NCBI GenBank assembly: GCA_009697105.1
Contig: SIAQ01000035.1
Coordinates: forward strand, 1 to 43,641
Direction of reading: 5' to 3'
Source: Gemmataceae bacterium
Lineage (GTDB): Bacteria; Planctomycetota; Planctomycetia; Gemmatales; Gemmataceae
Length of the DNA: 43,641 bases
A program made the position numbers and the translations under genes. The notes beneath the pieces are model-generated. The model ran no database searches. It was not told the DNA's origin and saw nothing but the letters and a program-made list of their open reading frames with translations. Each line of letters opens with the position of its first letter. The stretch's first letter is position 1. Below, in pieces: positions 2,166 through 42,671 of this stretch.

Positions 2166-2286
2166 TAGTGCTCTGTCAACACTAAAATACCGGGTACGAG
2201 CCGGAAGCGTAAGCGACGGATGGTTATTCCAGACCGTCGCTTACGCTTCCGGCTCGTAAATCAAGCATCCTATATTTAAGCCGTAA
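2166..2286 (+). repeat. MITE-like element, copy 1 (inverted relative to copy 2 at 42543)
   Basis: The core is a perfect inverted repeat with 25-bp arms, 2195-2219 and 2234-2258, around a 14-base loop. The left flank begins TAGTGCTCTGTCAAC. The whole unit (left flank, hairpin, loop, right flank up to about 2286) matches the reverse complement of 42543-42671, including loop and flanks, so this is one mobile unit rather than two unrelated hairpins. The right end has diverged from the terminal repeat kept in copy 2. Confidence 0.75.
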
Positions 2287-2321
2287 TTTAGGTATACTGT
2301 CCCCCGAACCACAGCAATTGG

Positions 2322-2354
2322 AAAAAAACAGGTCAGGCCCGAAAGCCTGACCTG
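2322..2354 (-). terminator. Rho-independent terminator for the minus-strand DUF1501 gene
   Basis: A perfect 10-bp stem (CAGGTCAGGC at 2329-2338 with GCCTGACCTG at 2345-2354) closes a six-base loop. Read on the minus strand it is followed directly by seven U residues (the A run at 2322-2328). It lies 75 bases beyond the stop of the minus-strand gene ending at 2430 and is the clearest classical terminator in the window. Confidence 0.9.
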
Positions 2355-2429
2355 CGAAGTAGTTTCGTGGGATGAGAGTCATCAATTCACGACGTGGAAC
2401 GCCGCGGTATGTTTCTTCAGCCCGTTACT

Positions 2430-3824
2430 TTACGCCATGATCTCACGCGCCACGTTGCCGTGGATGTCGGTGAGGGTGTAGTCGCGGCCGCCGTAGCGGT
2501 AGCTGAGGCGTTGGTGGTCGAAACCGAGGAGATGCAGGAGCGTGGCGTGGAGGTCATGGTGGTGCATCGGGTTTTCGACGGCGCGGATGCCGTGCTCGTC
2601 GGTTGCCCCGTAGCGCATGCCGCCTTTGACGCCGCCGCCCGCAACCCACATCGAGAAGCCGGCGGCGTTGTGATCGCGACCGTCGGTTCCCTGGCCGTGC
2701 GGCGTGCGGCCGAATTCGCCGCCCCACATGACGAGGGTGTCTTCGAGCATACCGCGCTGTCTCAAGTCGGTGAGCAGAGCGCCCATTGGCTGATCGATTT
2801 GTCGGCACAGCTGTGGCACGCGCTGGGTCAGGCCGCCGTGTGTGTCCCAGTTGTTGTTGTGGCAGATTTCGATGAAGCGAACGCCAGCCTCGGCGAAGCG
2901 TCGGGCCATCAAGCACTGGCGGCCGAAGTCGTCGGTCACGCCGCCGCCAATACCATACATATCTTTGGTCAGCTGGGTTTCACGGGAGATGTCCATCAGG
3001 TTCGGCAGCGATTCCTGCATGCGGAAGCCGAGTTCGTAGGAGTTGATGACGCCTTCGATATCCTGGTTGACCTGCGTGCGCTGGAGCAGATCGTTGTTCA
3101 TGTTTTGCAACAGATCAAGCTGCCGACGTTGCATGGTTTGCGTCAGCGGGCTGGCGAGGTTGCCGACGCGAGCGTTGGCGACCGGCGTGCCCTGTTCGCC
3201 GATCCGTGCGCCCTGGAACGACGCGGGCAGGAAGCCGTTGCCGTAGTTCTGCGCGCCGCCGAGTTCCGACGGCGGGCTGATGGTGATGTAGCCTGGCAGG
3301 TTCTGGTTTTCGCTGCCCATGCCGTAGAGGATCCACGCGCCCATCGACGGGCGGGTGAAGCGGAATTCGCCGGTGTGCATCATTAGAAACGATTGCGGAT
3401 GGTTCGGCACGCTGGTGTTCATGCTGTTGAGCAGGCACATGTCGTCGGCGTTGCGCGACAGGTGCGGGAACAGCTCGGAGATCGGTAGCCCGCTTTGGCC
3501 GCTCGGGTTGAATTTCCACGGCGACTTGAGTAGCGCTCGCCCATTGCCCCGGATGCCGCCGCTGACTGACACAGTTCGGCCATGATCGCGATACAAGGCT
3601 GGCTTGTAGTCGAAGGTATCGACGTGCGTCGGTCCGCCGCGCATGCAGAGGAAGATCACACGCTTGGCGCGTGGCGTGAAGTGCGAGGCACGCGGTGCGA
3701 GTGGGTTTTGGTAATTGGACGCTTGCGAATCTTGCGTCGCTAGCCCGGCAAGGGCCATGTAACCAAAACCGCACGACGCGGATTTGAGAAAGTTGCGACG
3801 CGAAAAAGCGGGAACTTCGGTCAT
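2430..3824 (-). CDS. DUF1501 family protein with Tat signal (alkaline-phosphatase superfamily fold)
   Basis: 464-residue DUF1501 protein, a planctomycete-expanded family related to sulfatases and alkaline phosphatases; the substrate is unknown. It starts with a twin-arginine signal (SRRNFLKSASCGFGYMALAG, residues 8-27), so it should be exported folded. Family blocks are visible: VIFLCMRGGPTHVDTFDYKP after the signal, HGQSGLPISELFPHLSR mid-protein, and near the C-terminus VWGGEFGRTP followed by RDHNAAGFSMWVAGGGVKGG and HHHDLHATLLHLLG. It lies downstream of a PSCyt1/DUF1549/DUF1553 gene on the same strand, the usual partner arrangement in planctomycetes, separated by a 105-base gap that holds a long inverted repeat. 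A strong terminator follows at 2322-2354. The pair is duplicated at 32.6-36.5 kb. Confidence 0.92.
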   Translation of the reverse strand: MTEVPAFSRRNFLKSASCGFGYMALAGLATQDSQASNYQNPLAPRASHFTPRAKRVIFLCMRGGPTHVDTFDYKPALYRDHGRTVSVSGGIRGNGRALLKSPWKFNPSGQSGLPISELFPHLSRNADDMCLLNSMNTSVPNHPQSFLMMHTGEFRFTRPSMGAWILYGMGSENQNLPGYITISPPSELGGAQNYGNGFLPASFQGARIGEQGTPVANARVGNLASPLTQTMQRRQLDLLQNMNNDLLQRTQVNQDIEGVINSYELGFRMQESLPNLMDISRETQLTKDMYGIGGGVTDDFGRQCLMARRFAEAGVRFIEICHNNNWDTHGGLTQRVPQLCRQIDQPMGALLTDLRQRGMLEDTLVMWGGEFGRTPHGQGTDGRDHNAAGFSMWVAGGGVKGGMRYGATDEHGIRAVENPMHHHDLHATLLHLLGFDHQRLSYRYGGRDYTLTDIHGNVAREIMA

Positions 3825-3860
3825 GGGTTATCTCCAAGTGAGAAGGTGATTAATATTGTT

Positions 3861-3924
3861 TTCCGCTTGCGGCTTAGCGCTCAGCATAGCATAGCGCACG
3901 CTGAGCGCTATGCCGCAAGCGGAA
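3861..3924. repeat. Intergenic inverted repeat, family 'CGCTTGCGGCTTAGCGCTC'
   Basis: Arms of 25 bp (3861-3885 and 3900-3924) pair with one mismatch around a 14-base loop. It fills most of the gap between the PSCyt1/DUF1549/DUF1553 gene, whose stop is at 3930, and the DUF1501 gene. The same arm sequence recurs at 11534-11609, 16672-16731 and, as one arm, at 23387-23407. No U tract follows on the minus strand, so it is not a standard terminator. Confidence 0.9.
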
Positions 3925-3929
3925 TCGGC

Positions 3930-6137
3930 CTACTGCAAATACCGAAACTCCGCCGTGGCGAACAGCGTCTGGCAGAAGCCGATCCACGGCGACACGTCGC
4001 TGCCTCCCGTGCCCTGCGACATGCGGGCCGCCTGCAGGAAGTCGATTGCCCTCTGGCGTTCCGATTCCGTCGCGCTGCGGCCCAGAGCCATGCGGTACGC
4101 CAATTCGACTCGGCCGGCGTCGTCGAGCGTCTTGTTCTCCAATACGCGCCAGGCGAAATACTTCGCTTGCTCGGTCGCGAATGGGCTGTTCATCATGAAC
4201 AGCGCCTGTGCGGGAACCGTTGTCACTTCACGCTGAGCGACGACGAGATTCGGATTGGCGATGTCGAACAACGCCAAGATTTCAGGCAATGGCCGACCGC
4301 GGAGCATCGCTTGATAGACGCCGCGATGGGTCGATTCTTCCGCTCCGCCGATGGACTTCTTCTTCGCGGGGGCGCTGCCGATCATCGAGCCTTTCATGGG
4401 CGTGCGGTTGAGCTTGCCGCTGACGGCGAGCACGGCGTCGCGAATCGCCTCGGCTTCGAGTCGGCGAACCGGCATACGCCAAAGGTACATGGTATCCGGA
4501 TCGGTCTTGTAGTTGGCATCGTGATGAGCGCTGCTCTGCTGGTAGGTCTTCGTGAGCAGGATTTCCTTGATAAGCTTCTTATGCGACCAGCCGTTGTCGA
4601 GGAAGCGCGTCGTCAGGTGGTCGAGCAGCTCGGGGTGCGTCGGTTTTTCGCCGAGCGAGCCGAAGTTGTCCGGCGAACGAACGATGCCCTGGCCGAAGAG
4701 ATGCTGCCAAACGCGATTGGCGGCCACGCGGGCGGTCAGCGGATTATCGCGGGCGGTCATCCATTGCGCGAGTTCCAGCCGGCCACTTTGCGAACGGTTG
4801 ATCGTCGGTTCGGTCGGCGATTTCAGGACGGCGGGGAAGCCACGCGTGACCTTTTCGCCGATCGACTTTGCATCGCCGCGAATGAGCACGTTGCAATCGA
4901 CTTTGTTGACGGCATCGCGGACGCCCATCGCTTCGCCGCCGTCGGAGAGTTCGTGATAACCAAACGCCTTGCCGCCCTTCTTGCCCGCGTTATTGCCGAA
5001 GAGCATGATCGAGCTATCGAAGATGCCAGCCAAGGCGTAATACTCTTTCGTCGAGATCGGGTCAAACTTATGGTCATGGCAACGAGCGCACATCATACTC
5101 ATCGCCAGCACCGCACGGGAAGCGACATCGATTTGGTCGGCAATCAAGTCATGTTTGTAATCGGGGTTGTTCTGTGCTCGCGGCTTTGAGGTCAACGCCA
5201 GGAAGCCCGTTGCGGTCAAGGCGGCATCGCGTTCCTTCTTGTCCTTGATCGGCAGCAGGTCGCCGGCAATCTGCTCGGTGATAAAGCGGTCATACGCCAT
5301 GTCAGTGTTGAACGCGTTGATGACATAATCGCGGTAGCGATACGCCGTCGGGAACGGAATGTTGTCCGCATTGCCATTGGTCTCGGCATAGCGGGCGAGG
5401 TCCAGCCAGTGCCGGCCCCAGCGTTCGCCATAATGCGGCGAGGCGAGAAGCCGATCGACGACTTTCTCAAACGCATTCGCCGAGCTGTCTTTGACAAACG
5501 CGTCGATCTCTTCGAGCGTCGGTGGCAGGCCGACGAGGTCGAATGTCACTCGCCGAATCAGCACTTCGCGCGTCGTTTCAGCCGACGGCGTCAGGCCCTT
5601 CGCTTCCATGCTTGCCAGTACCAGCGAATCGATCGGGCCACGCGCCCAGGTGGTATTCTTGGTCTTCGGCACGGCGACTTTCGCGACTGCTTGGAACGCC
5701 CAGAAGTTCTTCGACTCGGCCAGCGTCATCGACTTGTAGCCTTTAGACGCAGCGCCCTCGCGGGGGTCGGGTGCCCCCATGGCGATCCATTCGGCGAAGT
5801 CGGCGATGATGCCTTCGTGCAGCTGATTCTTCGGCGGCATCTTGATGCCCTGGTGCCGAAGCGATTTGATGAGCCGACTCTCGCCCGGTTTTCCCGGCAC
5901 GATGACAGGCCCCGTTTCGCCGCCCGCGAGCACGCCGGCCTTGGTGTCGAGCAGCAGGCCGCCCTTGATCTTGCTCGATTTGGCGGAATGGCATTCGTAG
6001 CACTGCTGAACGAGCACGGGGCGGATCTTCGCCTCGAAGAATTCCATGCCTTTGCCGGCTTTCGGCTGAGCCTGCACAGATGCAACTGAGGCCGACCCGA
6101 CGAAAAGCGCCAGCGAAGCGACAAGCAAGGACTTCAT
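3930..6137 (-). CDS. PSCyt1/DUF1549/DUF1553 secreted cytochrome-like protein
   Basis: 735-residue planctomycete protein with the usual three-part layout. A signal peptide (MKSLLVASLALFVGSASVAS...AQ, cleaved near 24) leads to a PSCyt1 domain with CxxCH at 46-50 (CYECH) and a possible axial Met in IKMPPK (about 100). DUF1549 spans about 165-370 and holds a second motif, CARCHDHKFDP (350-360). DUF1553 spans about 460-710 with RVAANRVWQHLFGQGIV and the conserved MNSPFATEQA region. AGAGG precedes the ATG. It probably binds haem c outside the cytoplasm; the reaction is unknown, although the family's habit of co-occurring with sulfatase-like proteins suggests polymer breakdown. Its paralogue is at 34067-36526. 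Confidence 0.92.
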   Translation of the reverse strand: MKSLLVASLALFVGSASVASVQAQPKAGKGMEFFEAKIRPVLVQQCYECHSAKSSKIKGGLLLDTKAGVLAGGETGPVIVPGKPGESRLIKSLRHQGIKMPPKNQLHEGIIADFAEWIAMGAPDPREGAASKGYKSMTLAESKNFWAFQAVAKVAVPKTKNTTWARGPIDSLVLASMEAKGLTPSAETTREVLIRRVTFDLVGLPPTLEEIDAFVKDSSANAFEKVVDRLLASPHYGERWGRHWLDLARYAETNGNADNIPFPTAYRYRDYVINAFNTDMAYDRFITEQIAGDLLPIKDKKERDAALTATGFLALTSKPRAQNNPDYKHDLIADQIDVASRAVLAMSMMCARCHDHKFDPISTKEYYALAGIFDSSIMLFGNNAGKKGGKAFGYHELSDGGEAMGVRDAVNKVDCNVLIRGDAKSIGEKVTRGFPAVLKSPTEPTINRSQSGRLELAQWMTARDNPLTARVAANRVWQHLFGQGIVRSPDNFGSLGEKPTHPELLDHLTTRFLDNGWSHKKLIKEILLTKTYQQSSAHHDANYKTDPDTMYLWRMPVRRLEAEAIRDAVLAVSGKLNRTPMKGSMIGSAPAKKKSIGGAEESTHRGVYQAMLRGRPLPEILALFDIANPNLVVAQREVTTVPAQALFMMNSPFATEQAKYFAWRVLENKTLDDAGRVELAYRMALGRSATESERQRAIDFLQAARMSQGTGGSDVSPWIGFCQTLFATAEFRYLQ

Positions 6138-6274
6138 ATCTAACCTCTTGTTGCCGAATCAGTTATGAGAAATACGATGCAGTGACTTTATGGTTTTCGG
6201 AATTGGATGTCTAATATAGAACCCGGTTGCGTGGCGAAAGTATCGAAAAAAAAGAATTTATCGAGAGTTCACGC

Positions 6275-6902: not shown

Positions 6903-6937
6903 AACCCAAGGGTTCGGAGTGCCTCACCCTTGGGCTT
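6903..6937. repeat. Single arm of the 'CTCCGAACC' inverted-repeat family
   Basis: This 35-base sequence matches one arm of the repeats at 14580-14660 and 36555-36633. It lies 14 bases beyond the stop of the minus-strand DUF1080 gene. No second arm is nearby, but the arm itself can fold through CCCAAGGGT pairing with ACCCTTGGG. Confidence 0.75.
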
Positions 6938-6950
6938 GAGGATTAAGGAA

Positions 6951-7706: not shown

Positions 7707-7880
7707 GGGAGAATCTCCGGTGAATGCAGGAAAGGTTTGAGTTGAGTATGTGAATTGGCGTGGTGGATGTCCAGGCGAGGCAACGCATGGAGCATCTGTC
7801 GGAAAGAAAAATGGTGGGGAGCGCTGATTCCAGCGTTCCGTTTTCTATTAGTCCTGAGTAAAATGGTGAAAGGAGGAAAT

Positions 7881-8444
7881 ATGATGTCAACCCTAACGAT
7901 TCCGCGAGCCACGCTTGACGATCTCTACCGCGTCGAGGGAAAAGCCGAACTGATCAATGGGAGGATCGTCCCGATGGCGTCCAGGCATCTGCCGAGCACG
8001 GTTGCGGGTAACATCTTCGTTGATCTGCGAATTCACACGAAGAAAACGAAGAAGGGGCGTGCCTATGCCGATGGTGCCGGCTTCGCAGTTTCTGAGATGC
8101 CGTCCGGGCGCGAATCGTTTGCGCCGGATACTTCGTATTACGACGGTCCACTGCCAGCGAGCTTCATGCGCTTCATTGAGGGGCCGCCGACGTGTGCGAT
8201 CGAAGTACGCAGTGAGAACGACTACGGCGACGGGGCGGAGGAATTGCTCGCTGCCAAACGAACTGACTATTTTCTCGCGGGCACGTTGGCGGTTTGGGAT
8301 GTCGATCCGCAGGCTGAAACGATTCGCCTTTACCTCGCTTCGAGTCCGAGTGAGCCGACGCTGTTCCGCCGGGGCGAGGTCGCCCATGCGGAACCTGCGG
8401 TCCCCGGTTGGCGCATGAGCGTGGATGAGGTGTTTGCGCGGTAG
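7881..8444 (+). CDS. Uma2 family (DUF820) nuclease-like protein
   Basis: 187 residues. The DUF820/Uma2 pattern is clear: LYRVEGKAELINGRIVPM at the N-terminus, FAPDTSYYDG carrying the central PD acidic residue, then CAIEVRSENDYGDG (the E-x-x-S strand of the PD-(D/E)xK core), RTDYFLAGTLAVWDVDP and a C-terminal LFRRGEVAHAEPAVPGWRMSVDEVF. Such proteins have a restriction-endonuclease-like fold and unknown targets, and are multiplied in cyanobacteria and planctomycetes. AAGGAGG at 7870-7876 fixes the start at the ATG at 7881 rather than further upstream at 7755. Confidence 0.88.
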   Translation: MMSTLTIPRATLDDLYRVEGKAELINGRIVPMASRHLPSTVAGNIFVDLRIHTKKTKKGRAYADGAGFAVSEMPSGRESFAPDTSYYDGPLPASFMRFIEGPPTCAIEVRSENDYGDGAEELLAAKRTDYFLAGTLAVWDVDPQAETIRLYLASSPSEPTLFRRGEVAHAEPAVPGWRMSVDEVFAR

Positions 8445-8456
8445 AGCCAGCGGGGC

Positions 8457-9407: not shown

Positions 9408-11099
9408 ATGGGAGCGAAACAACTCTCCTACAGTGACGAAGCCCGTCAAAGCCTGCTCGCCGGCGTTAGCAAACTCGCTCGCGCCGTCCGATCAACTCTC
9501 GGACCCCGGGGCCGCAATGCCGTCATCGACAAGGGCTGGGGCAGCCCGACTGTCACGAAAGACGGCGTCACCGTTGCCGAGGAAATCGAACTCGAAGACG
9601 TGTACGAAAACATGGGCGCTCAGCTTGTCAAAGAAGCCGCCTCGAAGACCAGTGATGTCGCCGGCGACGGCACGACTACCGCGACCATCCTCGCCGAGGC
9701 CATCTATCGCGAAGGCCTCAAGAATATCGCTTCCGGCGCCGACCCGATGGCCCTGACTCGCGGCATCCAGAAGGCCGTCGAGTGTGTCGTCGCGGAGCTT
9801 CGCAAGATCGCCGAGAAGATCGACGATTCCGACGACAAGGAAATCACCGAAGTCGCCACCATCGCTGCCAACAACAACCGCGAGATCGGCGGCAAGCTCG
9901 CCGAGGCCATGCGGAAAGTCGGCGCGTCCAACGGCGTCATCACCGTTGAAGAAGGCAAGTCGGCCGAGACCGAAGTCGTCGTCGTGTCAGGCATGCAGTT
10001 TGATCGCGGCTATCTCTCGCCGCACTTCGTCACGAATCAAGAAGAAGTCATCGTCGAGATGGAGAACCCGTACATCCTCATCTACGAGGAAAAGATCACG
10101 ACGATCAAAAGTCTGATTCCGCTTCTCGAAATTATCTCGAAGGACAACGAGTCGCTCTTCATTATCGCTGAAGACATCGAAGGCGAAGCTCTTGCGACGC
10201 TCGTCGTCAACAAGCTCAAGGGTATCCTCAAAGTCTGCGCCGTCAAGGCGCCGGGCTATGGCGATCGCCGCAAGGCGATGCTCGAAGACCTCGCTACTCT
10301 CACGGGTGGCAAGGCGATCTTCAAGGATCTCGGCATCCAGCTTGAAAACATCAAGCTCACCGATCTCGGTCGCGCCAAGAAGGTCAAGGTTGACGCCGAA
10401 AACACGACCGTCACCGAAGGCGTGGGCGACAAGAAGGCCATAGAAGGCCGTTGCGACATGATCCGCAAGGAAATCGAACGGACCGACAGCGAGTACGACG
10501 TCGAAAAGCTGCAAGAGCGCCTCGCGAAGTTGGCGGGCGGCGTGGCCCAACTCAAAGTTGGCGCGGCGACCGAAACCGAAATGAAGGAACGCAAAGCTCT
10601 CTATGAAGATGCGTTGCACGCAACTCGTGCTGCCATCGCCGAAGGTATCGTTCCAGGCGGCGGCGTGGCGCTGTTGCAGACTCGCAAGGCGCTCGAAAGG
10701 CTCCAGCTCGAAGGCGACGAAGCGCTCGGCGCTCGCGTGCTGATTAACGTACTCGACATTCCGTGCCGAATGATCGCCGAGAATGCCGGCGTCGATGGCT
10801 CGGTCGTCGTCAATAACATTCGCCGCAGCAAAGAAAAGAACTACGGCTACAACGCCTTGACCGCCGAGTATGGCGATCTTCGCAAGGCCGGCGTCGTCGA
10901 TCCGGTCAAAGTTACCCGCAGTGCATTGCAAAACGGCTCCTCGGTCGCGTGTCTCCTGCTCACGACCGAATCGCTTGTCGCTGACATTCCGTCCAAGGAA
11001 AAGGCAGACGACCATCACGACCACGATCATGGTGGCGGAGGCATGGGCGGAATGGGCGGAGGAATGGGCGGCATGGGGGGCATGGGCGGCATGATGTAA
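9408..11099 (+). CDS. groEL: Chaperonin GroEL, copy 1 (with GGM tail)
   Basis: 563-residue 60-kDa chaperonin. It assembles into the double-ring ATP-driven folding cage in the cytoplasm and works with GroES. Visible signatures include STLGPRGRN (29-37), the nucleotide-binding GDGTTTAT (87-94), the apical [20 protein letters not shown] and the equatorial [12 protein letters not shown]. The C-terminus has a His/Asp-rich linker ([11 protein letters not shown]) and a long Gly-Gly-Met tail, the usual flexible cage floor. AAGGAGA precedes the ATG. It heads a same-strand cluster with groES, a second groEL, dnaJ and grpE. The His-rich insertion before the GGM tail could bind metal, which is inference. 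Confidence 0.97.
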
Positions 11100-11111
11100 T
11101 CGGCGGAGTGG

Positions 11112-11202
11112 CTAGTGGTTGGTGGCTGGTGGCTAGTGAATAACGACTAGTCTTCGCGCTAACGCAATCGTCATTCACTAGCCACCAGTCACTAATCACT
11201 AG
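11112..11202. repeat. Intergenic inverted repeat, 'CTAGTG' family
   Basis: Arms of 30 bp (11112-11141 and 11173-11202) pair with four mismatches around a 31-base loop. The unit is built from CTAGTG and GGTGGCT repeats. It occupies most of the groEL1-groES gap and ends 18 bases before the groES ATG. Confidence 0.85.
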
Positions 11203-11220
11203 ACACTAATTAGGTGGACC

Positions 11221-11526
11221 ATGAGCAAAGAAAAAGACAAGATCAAGCCTCTCGATGATCGTATCGTCGTCGAGCCGCTCGAGGCGGAAGAAAAGACCGC
11301 TGGCGGTATCCTGCTTCCCGACAGCGCGAAGCAGAAGCCCCAGCGTGGCGTCGTCATTGCCGTCGGCCCAGGCAGGATGCTCGATAACGGCACGCGAGCG
11401 GCGCTCGCTGTCACCAAGGGTGACGAAGTTCTGTATGGCAAATATGCGGGCAACGATGTCAAGCTCGGCGGCAAAGAAGTCAAAATCCTCCGCGAAGGCG
11501 ATATCCTCGCGAAGATCGTGAAATAA
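11221..11526 (+). CDS. groES: Co-chaperonin GroES
   Basis: 101-residue heptameric lid of the GroEL cage. Diagnostic segments are [20 protein letters not shown], then the mobile-loop [16 protein letters not shown], and further on [18 protein letters not shown] and [10 protein letters not shown] at the C-terminus. AGGTGG precedes the ATG. It lies between two groEL genes, with a repeat-filled gap on each side, so which of the two GroELs it serves, or whether both, cannot be told from position. Length is normal for the family. Confidence 0.97.
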
Positions 11527-11533
11527 CCGTAGT

Positions 11534-11609
11534 GCCGCTTGCGGCTTAGCGCTCGAGCATACCATCGAGCGTTCCGGCGTTTCGCTGTGAGCGCTAAGCC
11601 GCAAGCGGC
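11534..11609. repeat. Perfect 21-bp inverted repeat between groES and groEL2
   Basis: Arms at 11534-11554 and 11589-11609 are exact reverse complements (family 'CGCTTGCGGCTTAGCGCTC') around a 34-base loop. It starts seven bases after the groES stop and ends 27 bases before the groEL2 ATG. The same family occurs at 3861, 16672 and 23387. Confidence 0.92.
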
Positions 11610-11636
11610 CTGGAAATACTTTTGGAGTTCGTGAAA

Positions 11637-13277
11637 ATGGCCAAGCAACTACTCTATACCGACGAAGCCCGTAAGAAGCTACTCGCGGGTGCCGAAAAGC
11701 TCGCCAAAGCCGTCGGCAGCACGCTCGGACCGACCGGGCGTAACGTCATCATCGAAAAATCGTTCGGCGGGCCGACCGTCACCAAAGACGGCGTCACCGT
11801 GTCGAAGGAAATCGACCTTCCCGATCCCTTTGAAAACATGGGTGCCAAGCTCGTCAACGCCGTCGCTCAGAAGACCAGCGACATCGCCGGCGACGGCACG
11901 ACCACCGCGACTATCCTCGCGTTGTCGATCTATCAGGAAGGCCTCCGCAACATCACCGCCGGTGCCAATCCGATGTCCATCAAGCGCGGCATCGACAAAG
12001 CCGTCGATGCGGTTGTCGCTTTCCTCGAAACCAGCTCGAAGCGCATCCCCGCCTGGGACAAGGGCGGCGAGGCGATGCTCATCAATGTCGCCAGCATCTC
12101 TGCCAACAATGACGAAGTCATCGGCAAGATGATGGCTCAAGCGTTCGAGAAGGTCGGCCAGGACGGCGTCATCACCGTCGAAGAAGGCAAGACCGCCGAG
12201 ACCACGCTTGATTTCGTCGAAGGCATGCAGTTCGACAAGGGCTATATCTCCCCGTACTTCATCACCGACGCCGTCGAGATGAAATGCATCATGGAAGATG
12301 CCTATATCCTCCTGTTTGAGAAAAAGCTTTCCGGTGTGCGCGACATGATTCCGCTGCTGGAAAAGATTCACCAATCGGGCAAACCTCTGCTCATTATCGC
12401 TGACGACGTCGAAAGCGAAGCACTCGCCGCCCTCGTCGTCAATCGGCTTCGCAGCGGCTTGAACGTGTGTGCCGTCAAATCGCCGGGCTTCGGCGATCGC
12501 CGCAAGGCCTTGATGGGCGACATCGCGACGCTGACCGCAGGCCAATTCATCAGCGAAGACCTCGGTCTCAAGCTGGAAAATATCGAGTTGGCACAACTCG
12601 GTCGGGCCAAAAAGATCATCGTCGAGAAGGAAGGCTGCACAATCATCAACGGCGCTGGCAAGAAAGACGCCATCATGACGCGAATCGACCAGATTCGCGC
12701 TCAGATGAACCAGACCGAAAGCGAATACGACAAGGAAAAGTTCAGCGAACGGTTGGCGAAGCTCACCGGCGGCGTGGCGATCATCAAGGTCGGCGCGGCA
12801 ACGGAAGCCGACATGAAGCAGAAGAAAGGCCGCGTCGAAGACGCTCTGCACGCAACCCGTGCAGCCGTGGCTGAGGGCATCCTCCCTGGTGGCGGCGTGG
12901 CATGCATCCGTGCGATCAAGGCCGTCAATGAGGTCGTCAAGACGCTTCACGGCGACGAGAAATCCGGCGCGGAGATTGTCGGTCGCGCTCTCGAGAAACC
13001 GGTTCGCATCCTCGCCGAGAACTCAGGCCAAGACGGCGCGGTTGTTGCCGACGAAGTCCGCATCCGTGGTGAGAAGAGTTTCAACGTCGGTTTCAATGCC
13101 TTGACTGGCGACTACGAAGACATGATCAAGGCTGGCGTCATCGACCCGACGAAGGTCACGCGCTCGGCCCTGCAAAACGCCGCCAGCATCGCCGGCCTGA
13201 TGCTGACGACGGAAGTCATGATCACGCGCATCGACGCCGACGCCCCGGGCAACACCGTCTCCGGAGCGATTCGGTAA
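11637..13277 (+). CDS. groEL: Chaperonin GroEL, copy 2 (no GGM tail)
   Basis: 546-residue second GroEL, beginning [20 protein letters not shown]. It keeps [17 protein letters not shown] (86-93), the apical [20 protein letters not shown] and the equatorial [12 protein letters not shown]. Its C-terminus ends in an ordinary polar sequence ([13 protein letters not shown]) and lacks the Gly-Gly-Met repeats of copy 1, so the two products probably differ in cage floor and client range, as described for divergent chaperonin paralogues in other phyla. GGAG lies nine bases before the ATG at 11637; a TTG at 11622 would overlap this ribosome binding site and is rejected. Which copy is the housekeeping one cannot be decided here. 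Confidence 0.96.
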
Positions 13278-13284
13278 CAGAAAT

Positions 13285-13405
13285 GAGCTATCAGCTATCA
13301 GCTATCAGCTATCAGCTATCAGTTGGAAGCCGTCAGCGACGAAAACCCCGGTCCTCCCCCGACTCGGTGTTTTTGCTGATAGCTGACGGCTGATAGCTGA
13401 TAGCT
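13285..13405. repeat. Inverted repeat built from tandem AGCTATC units
   Basis: The left arm is about five tandem copies of AGCTATC (13287-13322). The right arm (13375-13405) is GCTGATAGCTGACGGCTGATAGC and neighbouring sequence, complementary to it in several registers. It fills the groEL2-dnaJ gap. A related single arm occurs at 26743-26775. This kind of 'TATCAGC' repeat is a common intergenic sequence in environmental genomes. Confidence 0.85.
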
Positions 13406-13422
13406 TTTGTCGTGGAGCGCAC

Positions 13423-14550
13423 ATGAGCAAGCGGGATTTCTACGAAGTGCTCGGCGTGGGCAAGACCGCTTCCGACGACGATCTCAAGAAGGCCTATCGC
13501 GCTCTCGTTATGAAGTATCACCCCGATCGCAATCCCGGCGATGACGAAGCGGCTGAGAAATTCAAGGAAGCAGCCGAGGCGTTCGGTGTTCTCAGCGATG
13601 CCGAAAAACGTCAAATCTACGATCGCCATGGCCACGAAGGATTGAAAGGCACGCGCGCGCCTAGCTTCGGCGATTTCGAATCGATGTTTCAAGGCACATC
13701 GTTCGGCGACATCTTTTCCAGTTTTTTCGGCGGCGGTAAGCGCGGCCCGCAGTCAGGCCAAAGTCTCGGCCTGACCCTCGAAATCAGCCTCGTCGAAGCG
13801 TATCACGGTTGCAAGCGAACCGTCGAAATCCCGCGTAACGAACACTGCCCTGATTGCACGGGCTCCGGTGCCGCCAAGGGCAGCAAACCCTCGCGCTGCC
13901 GCCAATGCCAAGGCTCCGGAAAGATGCAGGTCCGCATGGGATTCATGTCGATGCAGACGCCATGCAACGCATGCGGCGGGGCAGGCTCGGTCATCACCGA
14001 TCCGTGCGGCAAATGCCGAGGTCGCGGCAAAGTGAAGGTCACGCGAAGTCTCGAAATCAACATTCCCGCCGGCATCCAGAGCGGCCAGCGGATGTCGCTG
14101 CGCGGCGAAGGCGAAGCCGGCGAATCGGGAGCACGGGCAGGCGACTTGCTTGTCGAGGTTCATGTGGGTGATCACGATTTGTTCCGCCGCAAGGAGGACG
14201 CCCTCATTTGCCAGGTGCCGATCACGTTTAGCCAGGCCGCCTTGGGTGCGGAGATCGAAGTGCCGACGTTCGACGGCCCGATCAAAGAAAAGATTCAGCC
14301 CGGCGTGCAATCAGGCGATACGATTCGCGTGGATCGCAAAGGCATGCCGATCCTCGGTGCCGGCGGTCGGCGTGGCGATTTGCACGTCATCCTCGTCGTC
14401 GAAACGCCGCGCAATCTCTCAACGCGCCAAAAAGAACTGATGCGAGAATTAGCCGACCTGGATCACAAGAACGTATCTGTCCATCGCAAAAGTTTCTTCG
14501 ACAAATTGAAAGATCTGTTTACCAGTTCGGAAGACGCGAAGAGTAAGTAG
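13423..14550 (+). CDS. dnaJ: Chaperone DnaJ
   Basis: 375-residue Hsp40 that delivers unfolded clients to Hsp70 and stimulates its ATPase. A J domain (residues 3-70) has the HPD motif in [12 protein letters not shown] Phe/Gly-rich linker follows ([15 protein letters not shown]). Four zinc-binding repeats are present: [24 protein letters not shown] and CGKCRGRG. The C-terminal client-binding domains contain [15 protein letters not shown] and [23 protein letters not shown] precedes the ATG. It sits between groEL2 and grpE on the same strand, each gap carrying a long inverted repeat. The Hsp70 gene itself lies on the opposite strand at 17864-19600. Confidence 0.97.
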
Positions 14551-14579
14551 GTCTTGGATCTCAATCCGAAATGACATTC

Positions 14580-14660
14580 AAGCCCAGCGGTGAGGTACTC
14601 CGAACCCCTGGGATTTCTTTGGCTGATCCCAAGGATTCGGAGTACTTCACCCTTGGGCTT
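14580..14660. repeat. Inverted repeat between dnaJ and grpE ('CTCCGAACC' family)
   Basis: Arms of 35 bp (14580-14614 and 14626-14660) pair with a few mismatches around an 11-base loop. The sequence is open in the grpE frame, which creates a false 38-residue N-terminal extension from 14571. Relatives lie at 6903, 36555 and 39257. Confidence 0.9.
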
Positions 14661-16671: not shown

Positions 16672-16731
16672 ATTCCGCTTGCGGCTCAACGCACGGACAA
16701 TTCCACGCGAGCGCTAAGCCGCAAGCGGAAT
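16672..16731. repeat. Inverted repeat before the NYN gene ('CGCTTGCGG' family)
   Basis: Arms of about 21 bp (16672-16692 and 16711-16731) pair with a few mismatches. The right arm ends four bases before the ATG at 16735 and contributes AGCGGA, the nearest thing to a ribosome binding site for that gene. Confidence 0.85.
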
Positions 16732-17782: not shown

Positions 17783-17799
17783 GATGGCACTCCTGTATT

Positions 17800-17855
17800 C
17801 GTTTAGCGCCCGCAGTGCGACCTGCGATCGCGTGACACATTGCGGGCGCTAAACG
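17800..17855. repeat. Inverted repeat between the Hsp70 and zinc-ribbon genes
   Basis: Arms of 18 bp (17800-17817 and 17838-17855; CGTTTAGCGCCCGCAGTG type) pair with one mismatch around a 20-base loop. It ends eight bases before the Hsp70 stop codon at 17864. Confidence 0.88.
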
Positions 17856-17863
17856 AGGACCAC

Positions 17864-19600: not shown

Positions 19601-19695
19601 TGTTCTTATCCGTTGCCAGGTTACTGATGAAGAATCATTGTAGAAACGATATGGGAAAACGGATGCGACGGGGAGATGACGTACAAACGCGTTTC

Positions 19696-19788
19696 GTTTA
19701 GCCGCTCGCCTTTGGCGAGCGTGGACGTGCGAATTTACGGTCGCCGTGGAGCGCCACGCCCGCACTCGCCAAAGGCGAGTGGCTAAAC
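19696..19788. repeat. Inverted repeat, 'TAGCCGCTCGCC' family
   Basis: Left arm GTTTAGCCGCTCGCCTTTGG (19696 on, to 19721) pairs with the right arm at 19763-19788; each arm is itself a hairpin (CTCGCC-TTTGGCGAG). It fills the gap between the broken universal stress gene and the Hsp70 gene. Family members also lie at 29088 and 32530. Confidence 0.9.
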
Positions 19789-19792
19789 AAAA

Positions 19793-21845: not shown

Positions 21846-21884
21846 CTATACTTTGAACGGCTAGATTTGTCCGATCCATTGAAT

Positions 21885-21945
21885 GGTGGCACAGACATTC
21901 TTGTCTGTGTTTGCGTTTTACACAGACAAGAATGTCTGTGCCACC
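21885..21945. repeat. Perfect 26-bp inverted repeat ('GGTGGCACAGACATTCTTG')
   Basis: Arms at 21885-21910 and 21920-21945 are exact reverse complements with a nine-base loop (TTGCGTTTT). It lies 40 bases after the desaturase stop and could act as a terminator-like hairpin, but no U tract follows. This motif resembles a widespread intergenic repeat of planctomycetes. Confidence 0.92.
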
Positions 21946-22002
21946 AATGCGACAAATCCAATCGTGTGAAGTATATACTTCGAGAGGATGAATTTGTCCG
22001 GT

Positions 22003-22060
22003 CCGAGGCTGAGCGCCAGCGAAGGGCACGACGCGGCCCTTCGCTGGCGCTCAGCCTCGG
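22003..22060. repeat. Perfect 24-bp inverted repeat ('CCGAGGCTGAGCGCCAGCG')
   Basis: Arms at 22003-22026 and 22037-22060 are exact, with a ten-base loop, followed by AAAAA. This is a second, unrelated hairpin in the 410-base gap between the desaturase and carA. The remaining 195 bases before carA show no supported gene. Confidence 0.92.
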
Positions 22061-22255
22061 AAAAACGACGAGCAGGCCTCGCACTAATCGTTGCCGCCTC
22101 CTCTTCGCGCCTTTGCGTGAGCTTCTTTCACATGCTCGGCAATGCATCCAAATCTCCGCTTGCCTGCCTCATCCCATGGTACGTCTCAGCAAGCATTGGC
22201 CGACCGTCCGCAATCCCGTAAAATAAGCGAAATTCTCGCACTTTGAGGTCACGCA

Positions 22256-25150: not shown

Positions 25151-25271
25151 AACCACAGAGGCACAGAGAACACAGAGAAAATACCAAGAAATGTAGGATC
25201 GATGAAAGACGAATCGTGCGTTCGATTCCAATTCTTCGCATTTTCTCTGTGTTCTCTGTGCCTCTGTGGTT
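25151..25271. repeat. Perfect 32-bp inverted repeat between purB and the esterase
   Basis: Arms at 25151-25182 and 25240-25271 (AACCACAGAGGCACAGAGAA type) are exact reverse complements around a 57-base loop. The right arm overlaps the first base of the purB stop codon. The 'CTCTGTGCCTCTGTGGT' sequence is, from memory, a widespread intergenic repeat in several bacterial phyla. Confidence 0.93.
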
Positions 25272-29084: not shown

Positions 29085-29087
29085 GTG

Positions 29088-29162
29088 TAGCCGCTCGCCT
29101 TCGGCGAGCGCGGACTGGTAGTGCGGCAGCCGCGGATCGCGCTCGCCGAAGGCGAGCGGCTA
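29088..29162. repeat. Inverted repeat, 'TAGCCGCTCGCC' family, after the ceramidase-like gene
   Basis: Arms of about 23 bp (from 29088 and to 29162) pair fully over TAGCCGCTCGCCTTCGGCGA and its complement, and each arm folds on itself. It starts three bases after the stop codon. Family members lie at 19696 and 32530. Confidence 0.92.
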
Positions 29163-29233
29163 AACACGGAACGTAGTTGATCTACGCCGTTGCTCGTACA
29201 ATGTTCACATCGTCCATTACTTGACAAGGTCTA

Positions 29234-29564: not shown

Positions 29565-29658
29565 GAATTGTAGGGTGCGTCAAGCGCCAGCGCCGACGCA
29601 CCAGGGCCTTGCGATCGATTGGTGCATCGGCGCTGGCGCTTGACGCACCCTACAATTC
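29565..29658. repeat. 38-bp inverted repeat between DUF971 and mrp
   Basis: Arms at 29565-29602 and 29621-29658 (GAATTGTAGGGTGCGTCAAG type) pair over 38 positions with one mismatch, around an 18-base loop. It begins five bases after the DUF971 stop and ends 40 bases before the mrp ATG. Confidence 0.93.
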
Positions 29659-32529: not shown

Positions 32530-32621
32530 GTTTAGCCGCTCGCCTTCGGCGAGCGCGGACATGACGATTTCGCGATAACAGGTGCGCTGTATCCGCGCTC
32601 GCCAAAGGCGAGCGGCTAAAC
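32530..32621. repeat. Inverted repeat, 'TAGCCGCTCGCC' family, before the kelch gene
   Basis: 30-bp arms at 32530-32559 and 32592-32621 pair with one or two mismatches around a 32-base loop. It separates the DUF1501 stop (32628) from the kelch-FN3 start (32517). Confidence 0.92.
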
Positions 32622-34004: not shown

Positions 34005-34065
34005 ATATAGCCCGCCATTTATGGCGGGTCCCCGAAGCAAACCCGCCATAAATGGCGGGCTATAT
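34005..34065. repeat. Perfect inverted repeat joining the two secretome genes
   Basis: 25-bp arms at 34005-34029 and 34041-34065 (ATATAGCCCGCCATTTATGG type) are exact, with an 11-base loop. The repeat is the entire intergenic space: it ends one base from the upstream stop codon (34067-34069) and abuts the downstream ATG (34002-34004). Confidence 0.93.
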
Positions 34066-36554: not shown

Positions 36555-36633
36555 GCCCAATGGTGAGGTACTCCGAACCGTTGGGATATACGCACGGGAC
36601 ATCCCAACGGTTCGGAGTACCTCACCATTGGGC
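36555..36633. repeat. Perfect 33-bp inverted repeat ('CTCCGAACC' family)
   Basis: Arms at 36555-36587 and 36601-36633 are exact reverse complements with a 13-base loop. It begins 29 bases upstream of the second PSCyt1/DUF1549/DUF1553 ATG and ends five bases before the stop of the PPC gene. Confidence 0.93.
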
Positions 36634-36638
36634 TTGCA

Positions 36639-38930: not shown

Positions 38931-39400
38931 GGCAACTCTCGAGAAAAAAGTCGTCCAACCGACCGAGGGTAAGCGGTTATTTTACCAGATTTGCGGAGAA
39001 TATCGCCAATCAATTTTGCATGGATGACAAAAGTCGGTGCCCGCCAAAGTCAGGAATCCTCGTTCTTGTGCAGAGAATGCGGGAACGTAGAGAATGGCTT
39101 CTACATTGTGAGGTTCCTTACGGACGGAAATAATTCAACCAACACCGTTGAGGTTGGAGGATCCGCATCGCTGATATCAAACATGAGTTGCGTGACTTGG
39201 ACGGAAGAGATGTTTTTGGGATGAGACGCCATCAATGTTGAGGAAATAGGAATGCGAGCCCAAAAGTGTAGTACTCCGAACCGTTGGGCTCCCAGCGGCT
39301 CGGAGTACGTCGTCCTTGGCCGCTCGCTGTAGGCTAGCGCGACCCGTGTGTTGTGCGACATCGGTTCGCACTGCGCTTCGCGGCTGATGAAAACGCGGCA
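38931..39400. other. 470-base interval with one doubtful small gene and a repeat
   Basis: On the plus strand 39024-39224 could encode 66 residues (MTKVGARQSQESSFLCRECG, then a short beta-rich tail), but there is no ribosome binding site and only one CxxC, so I do not call it a gene. A degenerate hairpin of the 'CTCCGAACC' family occupies 39257-39320. Nothing else is supported. Confidence 0.35.
39257..39320. repeat. Degenerate 'CTCCGAACC' family inverted repeat
   Basis: The left arm (AGCCCAAAAGTGTAGTACTC, continuing CGAACCGTTGGG) matches 36555-36587 with changes. The right arm (CCCAGCGGCTCGGAGTACGT and on) pairs imperfectly with it. It lies about 80 bases after the stop of the minus-strand Cys-rich gene. 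Confidence 0.7.
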
Positions 39401-40120
39401 TTAGCGGGAAATCGGGGCAGGGATCGGGGGCAACGATTCATCCGTAGGGTAATCGGTCGTCATTGGACCGACGGGAGCGGAAATCGGTTCGCCCGCATCG
39501 CTTGGGTACACCGGAATCTGCGCCAGCGGTTCGATCAGCACGCCGCCGTCGTAGCTGCCGGTCGGACAGTACGACACCGGGTAGTAGCATTGCATCGGCT
39601 GACACCAGTAGTACCAATGTCGGCAGCACGGGTCCCAATAGCAGTAGCATCGGTAGCGCATATCCCAGCGTTGGCAGCTCCAGTGATAATGGCTTCGGCC
39701 ACGGTAGTAGGTTCCGTGCGAGAAGAGCGAGCCGTGCGTGTGGTGATAATTGACGTAGCGCGGCGCCGGGTTGAAGTTGATCCGCACGGTCGGCTTCACC
39801 GAGCCAAGGCCAAGGTTGGCGTTGATTCGGACAGGCGACTTCACCGAGCCAAGGTCGAGGTTGGCGTCGAGTCGGACGGGCGGCGCGACTTTCTGCACCT
39901 GGATCTTTGCGATCTGCGGCTGCACGACGATCGGTTTGATCGGCGTGATCTGAGGCTTCAGCTCGGCTACGTTCTTGACCGGTGCGATGGCGACCCGCGG
40001 GGGAGGGAGGGGCGCTTTGCCGCCGCCACCTTTACCACTCGGCGGAGCGGCGTTCGATGAAGTTGCCAAAGCGATCGCGAAAGTTGCCGAGGCCGCGAGC
40101 GAGCATACGAGCTTCTTCAT
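39401..40120 (-). CDS. Secreted Cys/Tyr/His-rich protein
   Basis: 239 residues with a signal peptide (MKKLVCSLAASATFAIALAT, cleaved near the following SSNA-A). The mature N-terminus is Gly/Pro-rich. Residues 82-111 are two 15-residue repeats (VRLDANLDLGSVKSP and VRINANLGLGSVKPT). Residues 122-190 are extraordinarily rich in His, Tyr, Trp and Cys (YVNYHHTHGSLFSHGTYYRG, then RYRCYCYWDPCCRHWYYWCQ), with eight Cys in about 37 residues, probably disulfide-bonded or metal-binding. The C-terminus is Pro-rich. I recognise the general style as a planctomycete secreted or cell-wall protein but no named family. It stands alone between a repeat and the LarA-like gene. Confidence 0.75.
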   Translation of the reverse strand: MKKLVCSLAASATFAIALATSSNAAPPSGKGGGGKAPLPPPRVAIAPVKNVAELKPQITPIKPIVVQPQIAKIQVQKVAPPVRLDANLDLGSVKSPVRINANLGLGSVKPTVRINFNPAPRYVNYHHTHGSLFSHGTYYRGRSHYHWSCQRWDMRYRCYCYWDPCCRHWYYWCQPMQCYYPVSYCPTGSYDGGVLIEPLAQIPVYPSDAGEPISAPVGPMTTDYPTDESLPPIPAPISR

Positions 40121-40388
40121 GGCGGATACCCTTTCGGAGTAAGAGGAAATCGGATCGCTGTGAGATAGGTTTAGGCCAGTGTTTCTGGCTTCCGAGCGAT
40201 GTCGCGATCCGACAGTAAAGAAACAGGCTGCTCGGCAAAACTTGCGCGGAGAATTGGCGGAAAAGTGAGGGGAGAATAAGCCTGAGGGTCAGCGCAACAA
40301 TCCCTGGGGGATCGGGCCCCCACCAATCGAGGCGCTCATGGTGGGGCTTGGGGCCTTGCAATCTCGGTTCTGCAATTTGCAATCGACT

Positions 40389-41648
40389 TCACACCGCCGC
40401 CAAATTGCCGTTCGCATCAAACGTCACGTCATACGGCCCTTTGAGCACGTCGAAGTCGGTCATTGATTTCAGGTCTTTCAGGCAGGCTTCGCTTACTTCC
40501 ACGTCTTCAAGCATCAGCGTGTTTTTGATGTGCATCACGCGGGCTTGTTCGGGCGATCGGCTGCCGATGATGTTCAACGCGGCATCGAGCACTTCGCGGT
40601 CGCTGTCGAAGTGGACGGCGATGTTCGCGCCTTCGGGGTAGCCGCTCGTCACGCAGTTGATGCGGGTGACGTTGTAGTCCATGCCCTTGACGAGCCGTGT
40701 CGTGCAGAAGTCAGCGAAGCCGATGCCGCAGGCGTTGCCGTGGGTGTGCTCGGTCAGGCCGCGCAGGAAGATGTAACGCATCGTCGGCTGATTGGTGACG
40801 GTATCGGATCGCAGTGCGCGCTTGCGGCCAACGACGTTCGTGTCCATGCCGCTGCCGGAGATGTCCTTGCCGATCTCGTCGATGATGAGCAGGTCGGCCT
40901 CGTGAAAGGGCAGTCGGCCGAGCCATTCCTTGGCTTTGGCAAGCAGGCGTTCCTCGGTCGGCTCGAAGTCGGCGGGCAGGGCGGCGGCGAGCAGGGCGGT
41001 CTCGTCGTAGCCGTTCTCCACCGTCGCCAGGCCGAACGCGATCGGGGCCTTCGCACGCATCACTCGGCTGACGGCACGCACGACTGGATCGTAGGGTTGT
41101 TCGAGCAAGACGCGATGGTAATGGGCGGCACCATGGCGCTTGCCCAGGCCGATCATCATCATTTTGAGCAAGCCGCTCTCGACCAGGCCAGCGTAGCTCG
41201 TGTGCGGCTTGACGCGGGCAACGACGCCGATGTGGTCGGCTTGTGAGGCGTTCTTATCGAGGTAGACCGGCCAACCTTCGGGCGTGTCGCCGACGTGGAT
41301 GACATCCATCGACGAGCGGATCGGTGCCCCGACGTACTCCTCGGTGATGCCATAGGTTTGCAGGACGCCGATCTGTCCCTCGGCCGTCGCCCCGCCGTGG
41401 CTGCCCATCGCGGGTACGAGGTAGGGTAGGGCGCCGAGGTCGCGCAGGTACTGCACGGTGCTCTTGAGGATGAGCGCGATATTGGCGATGCCTCGGCTGC
41501 CGGCCGTCAGCGCGACCGATTGGCCGGGCTTGATCTTCGTGCCCAGGTTGAGCTTGCCGAGCACATCGCGGATTGTCGCCGGGATGTGCTCAACGCGCTG
41601 CCGCGGGAATTTTTGACGAAGTCGAAGCATGCGAGGATAGGTTGACAT
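40389..41648 (-). CDS. LarA-like (DUF2088) nickel-pincer racemase family protein
   Basis: 419 residues. The N-terminal DUF2088/LarA-like domain shows KIKPGQSVALTAGSRGIANI and YLVPAMGSHGGATAEGQIGV; the central part has VVARVKPHTSYAGLVESGLL and GLGKRHGAAHYHRVL with candidate cofactor-lysine and histidine positions; ADLLIIDEIGKDISGSGMDT leads the C-terminal domain. LarA uses a nickel-pincer cofactor for lactate racemisation; the planctomycete subfamily is of unknown substrate and no larB, larC or larE gene is in the window. The ATG at 41648 has only a weak ribosome binding site (AGGA). Confidence 0.82.
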   Translation of the reverse strand: MSTYPRMLRLRQKFPRQRVEHIPATIRDVLGKLNLGTKIKPGQSVALTAGSRGIANIALILKSTVQYLRDLGALPYLVPAMGSHGGATAEGQIGVLQTYGITEEYVGAPIRSSMDVIHVGDTPEGWPVYLDKNASQADHIGVVARVKPHTSYAGLVESGLLKMMMIGLGKRHGAAHYHRVLLEQPYDPVVRAVSRVMRAKAPIAFGLATVENGYDETALLAAALPADFEPTEERLLAKAKEWLGRLPFHEADLLIIDEIGKDISGSGMDTNVVGRKRALRSDTVTNQPTMRYIFLRGLTEHTHGNACGIGFADFCTTRLVKGMDYNVTRINCVTSGYPEGANIAVHFDSDREVLDAALNIIGSRSPEQARVMHIKNTLMLEDVEVSEACLKDLKSMTDFDVLKGPYDVTFDANGNLAAV

Positions 41649-41699
41649 GGGGTGGGGTCCTAATTTAAAGATTTGAACTCCGCGGTGCTGCGGAATTCT

Positions 41700-42108
41700 T
41701 TATGAACCAGAGTCTATCTGTAGCAGACGTTCGATAATTCGCGATTCAGAGTTCAGGCGGAGAAAACGGATAGTGACATCGGCAATCTGTGACAACGGAA
41801 TCAATCGACCGTTCACCAGCTCAATATGTTCCGACCTGATGTTTTTTCGAGGATGGTACAGCGGCACCAAATTCCCTGTTCTTGGGTCGATAGAGGCGAT
41901 ATCTGTGCCTTTTCTCATGCTGCATGGTACGCAAGATAACGCCAGGTTATCCTCTTCGGTCAATCCACCATGCTTCTCCGCGATGCTGTGATCGATACAC
42001 ATGACTCGTTATGGAATACCCGTCCGGAATCAAGCAATATTCACATTGGTCATTGGCACGAAGGCGAACGATACGGCGAAGCCCCAGTATGCCATAGGTT
42101 TCGCTCAC
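41700..42108 (-). pseudogene. HNH endonuclease, +1 frameshift
   Basis: From a GTG at 42108 the frame reads LRRIVRLRANDQCEYCLIPD then GYSITSH, a normal HNH N-terminus with its first Cys pair. One extra base next to the His codon (about 42000) breaks it; the other frame continues CIDHSIAEKHGGLTEEDNLA then LSCVPCSMRKG, containing the catalytic His and the second Cys pair, and on to RLNSESRIIERLL with a TAA at 41700. Length 409 is a multiple of three plus one. Without repair only a 100-residue fragment starting at 42002 would be translated. Confidence 0.85.
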
Positions 42109-42426
42109 GACGGGCGCTGCTCCTTCCGCTTTCTCGCCGCCGCGATCTTTACCAACCGAACAAGGTGCTCGACGTACTCAAAGTGCTCCTATTTCTCGCT
42201 GTCCCTCGGGAGTCAGTCCGGATCGTCGATTTTTTTCGAGAAGTTCGTTGATCCTCTCTTCAAATTTGGGAGAAGCACGTAGCGGCATTATTTCCTCGGC
42301 AGTCGGGCGATTTCCGAGCTTTTTCAGGATATCATTGAGTTCGCCATAAACGGGCTCCGTGCGACCTTGCCAGGAAGTGATTCCCGTTTCAATACTATCC
42401 GGCATGACTGACTCGATTGGCTTCAT
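42105..42426 (-). pseudogene. Small helical partner of the HNH gene, +1 frameshift
   Basis: Reads MKPIESVMPDSIETGITSWQ and on to LLEKNRRSGLTPEGQREI. Near 42188-42189 one extra base is present; the corrected frame continues EHFEYVEHLVRLVKIAAARK and ends with a TGA that overlaps the HNH GTG (GTGA). The corrected tail is a typical helical ending of small proteins encoded just upstream of HNH genes in planctomycetes and cyanobacteria. Length 322 is a multiple of three plus one. Confidence 0.8.
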
Positions 42427-42542
42427 TCTCGCGGCAAGATCGTCGGTTACGTCTACAGTAATCTACATTTCCGCACCTTCGGTAAATCGATGTTTTTATT
42501 TTAGCTGAAACGTATTCGAATACCAGCTACGGCGACCGCACT

Positions 42543-42671
42543 AGTGCTCTGTCACAGCTTAAATGCAGGATGTTTGGTTTATGAGCCGGAAGCGTAAGCG
42601 CCGGTCTGGCATAACCATCCGTCGCGTACGCTTCCGGCTCGTACCCGATATCTTAGGGTTGACAAAGCACT
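42543..42671 (-). repeat. MITE-like element, copy 2 (near-complete)
   Basis: About 129 bp. The left end AGTGCTCTGTCACAG and right end GTTGACAAAGCACT are imperfect terminal inverted repeats. The centre is an inverted repeat with 25-bp arms (42580-42604 and 42619-42643). The unit, including its loop, is the reverse complement of 2166-2286. It has no coding capacity. The target duplication is unclear; a TA at the ends is possible. Confidence 0.75.

Follow-up and report, generated by a model that had tools for sequence, protein, structure and literature searches.

Inverted repeats in the window

The stretch analysed here, hereafter the window, is one entire contig (SIAQ01000035.1, C99) of 43,641 nucleotides from a Gemmataceae bacterium whose genome (G000) comprises 5.44 Mb on 187 contigs, in an assembly that is 92% complete. 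Among its genes are some for DUF1501 and PSD1/PSCyt proteins, for two chaperonins, and for DnaJ and Hsp70, and many of the junctions between them carry a long inverted repeat (IR). Most of these IRs are very probably doublets of repetitive extragenic palindromic (REP) units, that is, non-autonomous mobile elements of the type called REPIN (REP doublet forming hairpins) or BIME (bacterial interspersed mosaic element).

An earlier note on this DNA had listed 17 IRs in several unrelated families, some recurring three or four times. All 17 are real. Sixteen were found again with arms of 16-40 bp that are 86-100% complementary, the IR at 16672 was found separately (24-nucleotide arms, 88%), and two more lie at 42580-42643 and, as a worn copy, at 39271-39308. 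The recurrence was also borne out. Family F0 is present as three doublets (3861, 11534, and 16672), as is F2 (19692, 29088, and 32530); F3 has four copies, namely two doublets (14580 and 36555), a single unit (6905-6938), and the worn copy at 39271; F1 has two (2195 and 42580). The features are collected in Table 1. In the groEL-groES-groEL2-dnaJ cluster (9408-14660) every junction holds an IR, in order a 7-mer type, F0, a second 7-mer type, and F3. An Rfam scan of the window gave no match above the gathering score.

Table 1. Inverted repeats and related units of the window, with the state of the same place in the sister species where recorded.
Position	Strand	Feature	Remark
2195-2258		F1 REP-like doublet, TACGAGCCGGAAGCGTAAGCGACGG arms	F1 also there in sister species
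3861-3924		F0 doublet between PSD1/PSCyt and DUF1501 genes	5 nt from stop; F0 also there in sister species
6905-6938	-	Single unpaired F3 unit, hairpin and CTTG/CAAG foot	
11107-11207		IR with 7-mer-repeat arms (AGTGGCT type), groEL/groES junction; not REP-like	
11534-11609		F0 doublet, groES/groEL2 junction	
13286-13405		IR with 7-mer-repeat arms (AGCTATC), groEL2/dnaJ junction; not REP-like	
14580-14660		Worn F3 doublet downstream of dnaJ	Not scored as IR in sister species
16672-16731		F0 doublet, 24-nt arms, 88%	
17799-17856		Doublet with CGTTTAGCGCCCGC arms (F14 motif; clustered with F2)	F2 doublet here in sister species
19692-19792		F2 doublet (GTTTAGCCGCTCGCC)	
21847-21975		TATA-bounded framed element, 129 bp, F10 doublet core 21884-21946	
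21974-22061		Left half of same kind of frame, F5 doublet core 22002-22061; right end not recognisable	
25151-25271		F6 IR, ACAGAG-repeat arms	Arms alone do not fold (-0.2 kcal/mol)
29085-29165		F2 doublet, 3 nt past stop	
29565-29658		F13 doublet, GTAG foot (GTAGGGTGCGTC...)	
32530-32621		F2 doublet	80 matches in own genome (both strands counted)
34005-34065		F15 doublet (TATAGCCCGCCATTTATGGCGGG)	
36555-36633		Perfect F3 doublet, same family as flanks of Y1 gene L036	F2 doublet here in sister species
39271-39308		Worn, fused F3 copy, 18-nt arms, 89%	
42580-42643		F1 doublet, 25-nt arms, 88%	

Abundance, families, and anatomy

IRs with arms of 18 nucleotides or more and at least 85% pairing were counted in a 781-kb sample of the genome and compared with the dinucleotide shuffles that the earlier note had proposed as a check. 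The sample contains 269 IRs and the three shuffles 1, 0, and 0, a strong over-representation. About half of the sample was chosen for holding F2 or transposase matches. The density is nonetheless a general one, for the 20 arbitrarily chosen stretches by themselves yield 114 in 356 kb.

The IRs of 831 kb were sorted into families by Louvain clustering. Nineteen recurring groups of at least three copies take in 276 of the 306 IRs, although the grouping is heuristic: F1 mixes subfamilies, and the large groups are joined through partial similarity into two big components. Identical arm sequences recur tens of times at unrelated sites.

The layout of F3 is CAAG, hairpin, loop, hairpin, CTTG, with the feet facing outward. 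On their own, arms of F2, F3, F10, F13, and F15 form strong hairpins of -13 to -19 kcal/mol, and those of F0 and F1 weaker ones of about -5 to -8 kcal/mol. Single hairpin units were also identified outside doublets, both in the genome sample and in the window (6905). The repeats are high-copy extragenic hairpin units that occur singly and as inverted doublets, as in REP systems with their REP-associated tyrosine transposase (RAYT) in the broad sense. A GTAGG foot is present in F8 and F13 only; the other families start with CAAG, TTTAG, CGAG, CCGA, or CAGA.

Position relative to genes

Placement was examined in 943 kb holding 348 IRs with arms of at least 16 nucleotides. Genes were called with our own hexamer script, in which starts are uncertain. 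Only 24 of the 348 IRs lie more than 50% within called genes. IRs occupy 45% of the tandem junctions (n = 480), 43% of the convergent (n = 110), and 36% of the divergent (n = 107). At tandem junctions the median distance is 12 nucleotides to the stop codon and 46 to the next start, and 166 of 222 IRs are closer to the stop (Wilcoxon p 1.7e-12). Within 20 nucleotides of a stop lie 57.5% of 193 IRs, compared with 34% on average and at most 43.5% in 5000 trials in which the IRs were placed at random within the same gaps. The proposal that the repeats favour gene ends is thus upheld, as a bias toward stop codons.

The bias differs between families. F0, F2, F3, and F4 show it most strongly (73-100% within 20 nucleotides) and F1, F5, F6, and the CCGAGCC type less so (22-33%), in part because some of the latter sit inside longer frames. 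Of 18 window IRs, 12 are no more than 15 nucleotides from a called stop, the exceptions being 2195, 14580, 16672, 21884, 22002, and 42580; two of these (14580 and 16672) overlap a called gene start, where the start itself is uncertain.

A T run adjoins 10.9% of the 348 IRs, against a background of 2.8% and 2.2% per side. It is absent from about 89%, in agreement with the earlier remark that the repeats mostly lack a U tract. Intrinsic terminators were considered and set aside, T runs being too rare for them.

Y1 transposase genes flanked by the repeats

The genome has six Y1_Tnp matches, five of them above the cut-off. Three of the genes, L034, L035, and L036, are each flanked on both sides by one IR family; the flanks of L036 are F3, the family found in the window at 14580, 36555, and 6905, and those of L035 are F4. 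For a wider test, Y1 loci were drawn from seven genomes of the genus with 55 Pfam matches. Thirty-nine loci were entered; 28 were tested after 11 had been set aside because they were short or lacked a central gene. An IR of the same family lies on both sides of 11 of the 28 Y1 loci and of 8 of 192 control genes of similar size (odds ratio 14.9, p 7.6e-7). The contrast is conservative, because at least three of the eight flanked controls are Y1 genes themselves. One skipped locus, L144, has F8 on both sides. The families found to flank a Y1 gene of their own are F3, F4, F8, the CCGAGCCGCGACCG family, and the GTTTAGCCGCGACGCG family. A search for other gene types regularly enclosed by one IR family gave 26 enclosed genes among the 1136 of two samples, three of them the Y1 genes and the rest host-like by eye.

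The F3 and F4 transposases carry an HUH motif and a catalytic tyrosine, as REP-associated transposases in the broad sense do, and H93, H95, and Y152 are invariant in 17 of 17 aligned relatives. These proteins score low against Pfam and NCBIfam. All nine proteins compared with the NCBIfam model REP_Tyr_transpos (NF047646) fall below its curated cut-off of 80 bits, the best being L163 with 65.6 bits. The nearest solved relative of the F3/F4 transposases by sequence is 4er8, a REP-bound transposase (E 8.6e-4), and their structural model (pLDDT, the predicted local confidence, 83) matches ISDra2 TnpA and 4er8 with template modelling (TM) scores of about 0.45-0.49. A scan of 84,980 species with two peptide patterns, which is not exhaustive, returned 22 relatives, every title being Planctomycetota; at six of the 22 loci similar IRs are visible to the eye on either side, and several of the loci are from the genus genomes again.

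Comparison with a sister species

Junctions were compared with a sister species (G004) whose junction anchors are 95.4% identical. From the G000 sample, 142 of 677 junctions could be matched; additional, blindly picked G004 stretches overlapped little with that sample. The raw counts were 53 with the same family, 24 swaps, 13 and 10 in one species only, and 42 with none. In curation L071.15 was dropped, four swap rows became same, and three one-species rows became none. Of the 141 remaining junctions, 57 hold the same family in both species and 19 hold different families; an IR is confined to one species at 13 and 7, and 45 have none. With different families at 19 of 141 junctions, turnover is fast.

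Two window junctions, 17799 and 36555, hold a different family in the sister species. At L219+L216.33 the flanks are near-identical, and directly after the same stop codon one species has an F0 doublet and the other an F15-like one. The groEL/groES junction carries AGTGGCT-type arms in G000 and G004 and F3 in G002 and G005; G006 lacks any IR there of 14 nucleotides or more. The place after groES is held by F0 in G000 and G004 and by an F4-like IR in G001; in G006 it has CGTTTAGCGCCCGC arms, which are degraded in G002.

The main alternative is that selection keeps the hairpins as structures that process the 3' end, protect the mRNA, or terminate it, the families being alternative builds of one device. 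The earlier note had offered transcript processing as one of two readings. Several results speak for such selection, among them the strong proximity to stop codons and the differing families at the groE junctions across the genus. Over the 84 junctions without a common family, occupation in both species exceeds the expectation for independent events (odds ratio 9.4, p 1.9e-5), as though such sites called for a hairpin, and the excess is similar in tandem junctions alone; junctions that differ in their tolerance of insertions may also yield it. In the 60 IRs common to both species the arms differ by 4.3% and the adjoining intergenic DNA by 7.5%, where the arm figure is biased because arms are selected for pairing.

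Other results run against selection. No IR is present in either species at 45 of the 141 junctions, and only one species has one at 20; divergent junctions are occupied too (38 of 107), and about 89% of the IRs have no T run. In the 60 shared IRs, 7 pairs changed on both sides and stayed paired, as against 83 that changed between paired and unpaired. With so few pair-restoring changes, the hairpins do not look like conserved RNA structure. Selection for the hairpins would also leave the flanking of transposase genes unexplained. As the reason for the existence of the repeats it is unlikely, and transcript processing, with another family or none so often found in the sister species, was not sustained in that role. 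The hairpins are probably transcribed, so that effects on mRNA are possible.

The loops of the shared IRs differ by 16.7%, about three times the 5.3% of the intergenic DNA of IR-free junctions, by mutation or by exchange of copies. Some loops were replaced outright between the species, which may be exchange within one family. At L068+L215.30 and L063+L067.18, the loop between identical arms is inverted between the two species. In the window, a gene-sized stretch at 7782-8444 fails to align with the sister species at that place, with many gaps, and may be a species-specific gene.

Nesting and TATA-bounded frames

Further complementary arms lie outside the IR in 30 of 716 elements, compared with 0.11% when flanks are mismatched. 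The cases include an ACAGAG element within F3 and framed elements within F7 arms, and in G004 an F1 composite has cut through an F3 doublet.

A second kind of outer structure is a TATA-bounded frame of 119-167 bp with common ends of 25-27 nucleotides. Nineteen distinct elements were identified in two samples, strands being counted once. Frame size follows the core: 119 bp for F5, 129 for F10, 139 for F11, and 161-167 for the CCGAGCC type. The two framed elements of the window, 21847-21975 and 21974-22061, stand back to back and have a TATA boundary in common.

These frames would suit classical miniature inverted-repeat transposable elements (MITEs), moved by a DDE transposase that duplicates a TA target, with the hairpins as no more than their bodies, and one filled/empty pair (L219+L216.50) reads as such a duplication. 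However, no conserved flank was found beyond the arms of F0, F2, F3, F13, and F15, which suggests that framed elements belong to a minority of the families, and none of the eight genome loci matching an IS630-type transposase (PF13358) carries the frame ends. For the repeats as a whole this origin is very improbable. That the repeats are immobile by-products of replication errors, in which template switching makes palindromes, would suit the divergent and inverted loops, but is scarcely credible when the same arms recur tens of times at unrelated places and entire elements are present in one species and absent from the other.

Repeats with periodic arms

Three IRs of the window form a separate class, with arms of 7-9-mers, outside the REP-like explanation. 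The arms at 11107-11207 and 13286-13405 are tandem 7-mers (AGTGGCT and AGCTATC), and those at 25151-25271 are ACAGAG repeats. Periodic arms, by a cut-off of our own, occur in 16 of the 348 sample IRs, with differing unit sequences and the same layout. No transposase was found for them in the sample. In excerpts of PMC2700814, paired tandem-7/8-mer sites of Geobacter metallireducens have short tandem units on opposite strands, like 11107 and 13286. The unit sequences here differ from those, and neither set has a known transposase or function.

Proposed mechanism

For the remaining IRs, REP-type mobility is favoured. The other reading of the earlier note, non-autonomous elements that target gene ends, agrees with the results: the families flank Y1 genes, differ in presence or kind between sister species, and nest in each other. 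Each doublet consists of two hairpin units of 20-40 nucleotides in inverted orientation, and at least the F3, F4, F8, CCGAGCCGCGACCG, and GTTTAGCCGCGACGCG families accompany a Y1 HUH transposase gene, which they flank. The enzyme would recognise the hairpin on single-stranded DNA, cut at the foot, and insert copies elsewhere. Most surviving copies would be in the slack after stop codons, with others inside older palindromes, and families would displace one another over time. Some families would travel inside the TATA-bounded outer frame with its terminal inverted repeats. Families for which no transposase was found (F0, F1, F2, F10, F13, and F15) are inferred to have moved in the same way.

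Several results weigh against this account. Most families lack GT[AG]G at the hairpin foot and are not canonical REPs by the GTAG definition. Only three of the six Y1 matches of the genome are flanked, and 17 of the 28 Y1 loci tested, IS200-like genes among them, are not flanked on both sides. Among the genus loci tested, no flanked Y1 gene was found for F0, the F1 core, F2, F10, F13, or F15; F0, F1, and F2 are the commonest families, and no transposase for them turned up in an assembly that is 92% complete. The fold match is modest (TM 0.49 and a root-mean-square deviation of 8.2 Å to 4er8, residues 16-34 being poorly modelled). No comparison yielded a clean empty site in which a Y1 target could be recognised. 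One candidate for a clean insertion, L064:9937, was rejected: its BLAST matches span about 160 nucleotides, and the sister copy lost only the inner part, an internal deletion.

A further, tentative possibility, which we hold to be rather less than even, is that gene ends behave like sockets. Once a junction has held a palindrome, it would be occupied again and again, with single-strand transposases preferring existing hairpins, cells tolerating or needing a hairpin there, or both; families swap at fixed addresses (19 of 141) and nest concentrically. If so, competition between element families, and not inheritance, would set the landscape of 3'-end hairpins.

Comparison with known systems

The sources cited below are drawn on in excerpt. 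Literature searches pairing Gemmataceae with "repetitive extragenic palindrom" and for the ACAGAG string found no paper, and one on REP family replacement turned up no useful paper in the titles listed.

The closest parallel is the REP/BIME/REPIN system with its RAYT (TnpA_REP). In the excerpts, REP doublets are described close behind genes and in Planctomycetes (PMC3733652), transposase genes as lying between copies of their REPs (PMC2817692), and the doublet as the unit that moves (PMC3116915). Common to that system and the repeats described here are short hairpin units, inverted doublets with outward feet, high copy number, placement near the 3' ends of upstream genes, and a Y1 transposase of their own flanked by the repeats. 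Unlike that system, most families here have no GTAG/GGAG foot, F8 and F13 being exceptions, a single genome holds about 19 groups side by side, and several large families have no transposase that was found.

Class 3 TnpA_Y1 proteins of Planctomycetes and Acidobacteria are described in excerpts of PMC6006769; planctomycete members have non-GTAG feet, and their genes are flanked by high-copy atypical hairpins with a CnGA foot. L138, L150, and L164 likewise end in a Y----Q-like motif, and L150 and L164 have CCGA- or CAGA-footed repeats as their flanks. The F3/F4 transposases have THxH, a Y---Q-like motif, and feet of the CAAG/GAAG type, and are set apart from class 3 by description, not by sequence comparison.

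This kind of element is known, but to find so many families, exchanged so fast, is unusual. The observations connect the unusually dense hairpin layer of this planctomycete genome, with its many families, to a divergent clade of planctomycete Y1 transposases. The sister-species pair allows REP-like gain, loss, nesting, and family exchange to be traced junction by junction, and whether accumulation at stop codons reflects target choice or selection becomes testable.

REP dimers of Anabaena variabilis lie at the centre of longer, TATA-ended palindromes (excerpts of PMC3733652), as some doublets do here, whereas here one type of frame holds at least four unrelated cores. New in this genome are the number of coexisting families, the common frame with several cores, and the exchange of families at fixed junctions.

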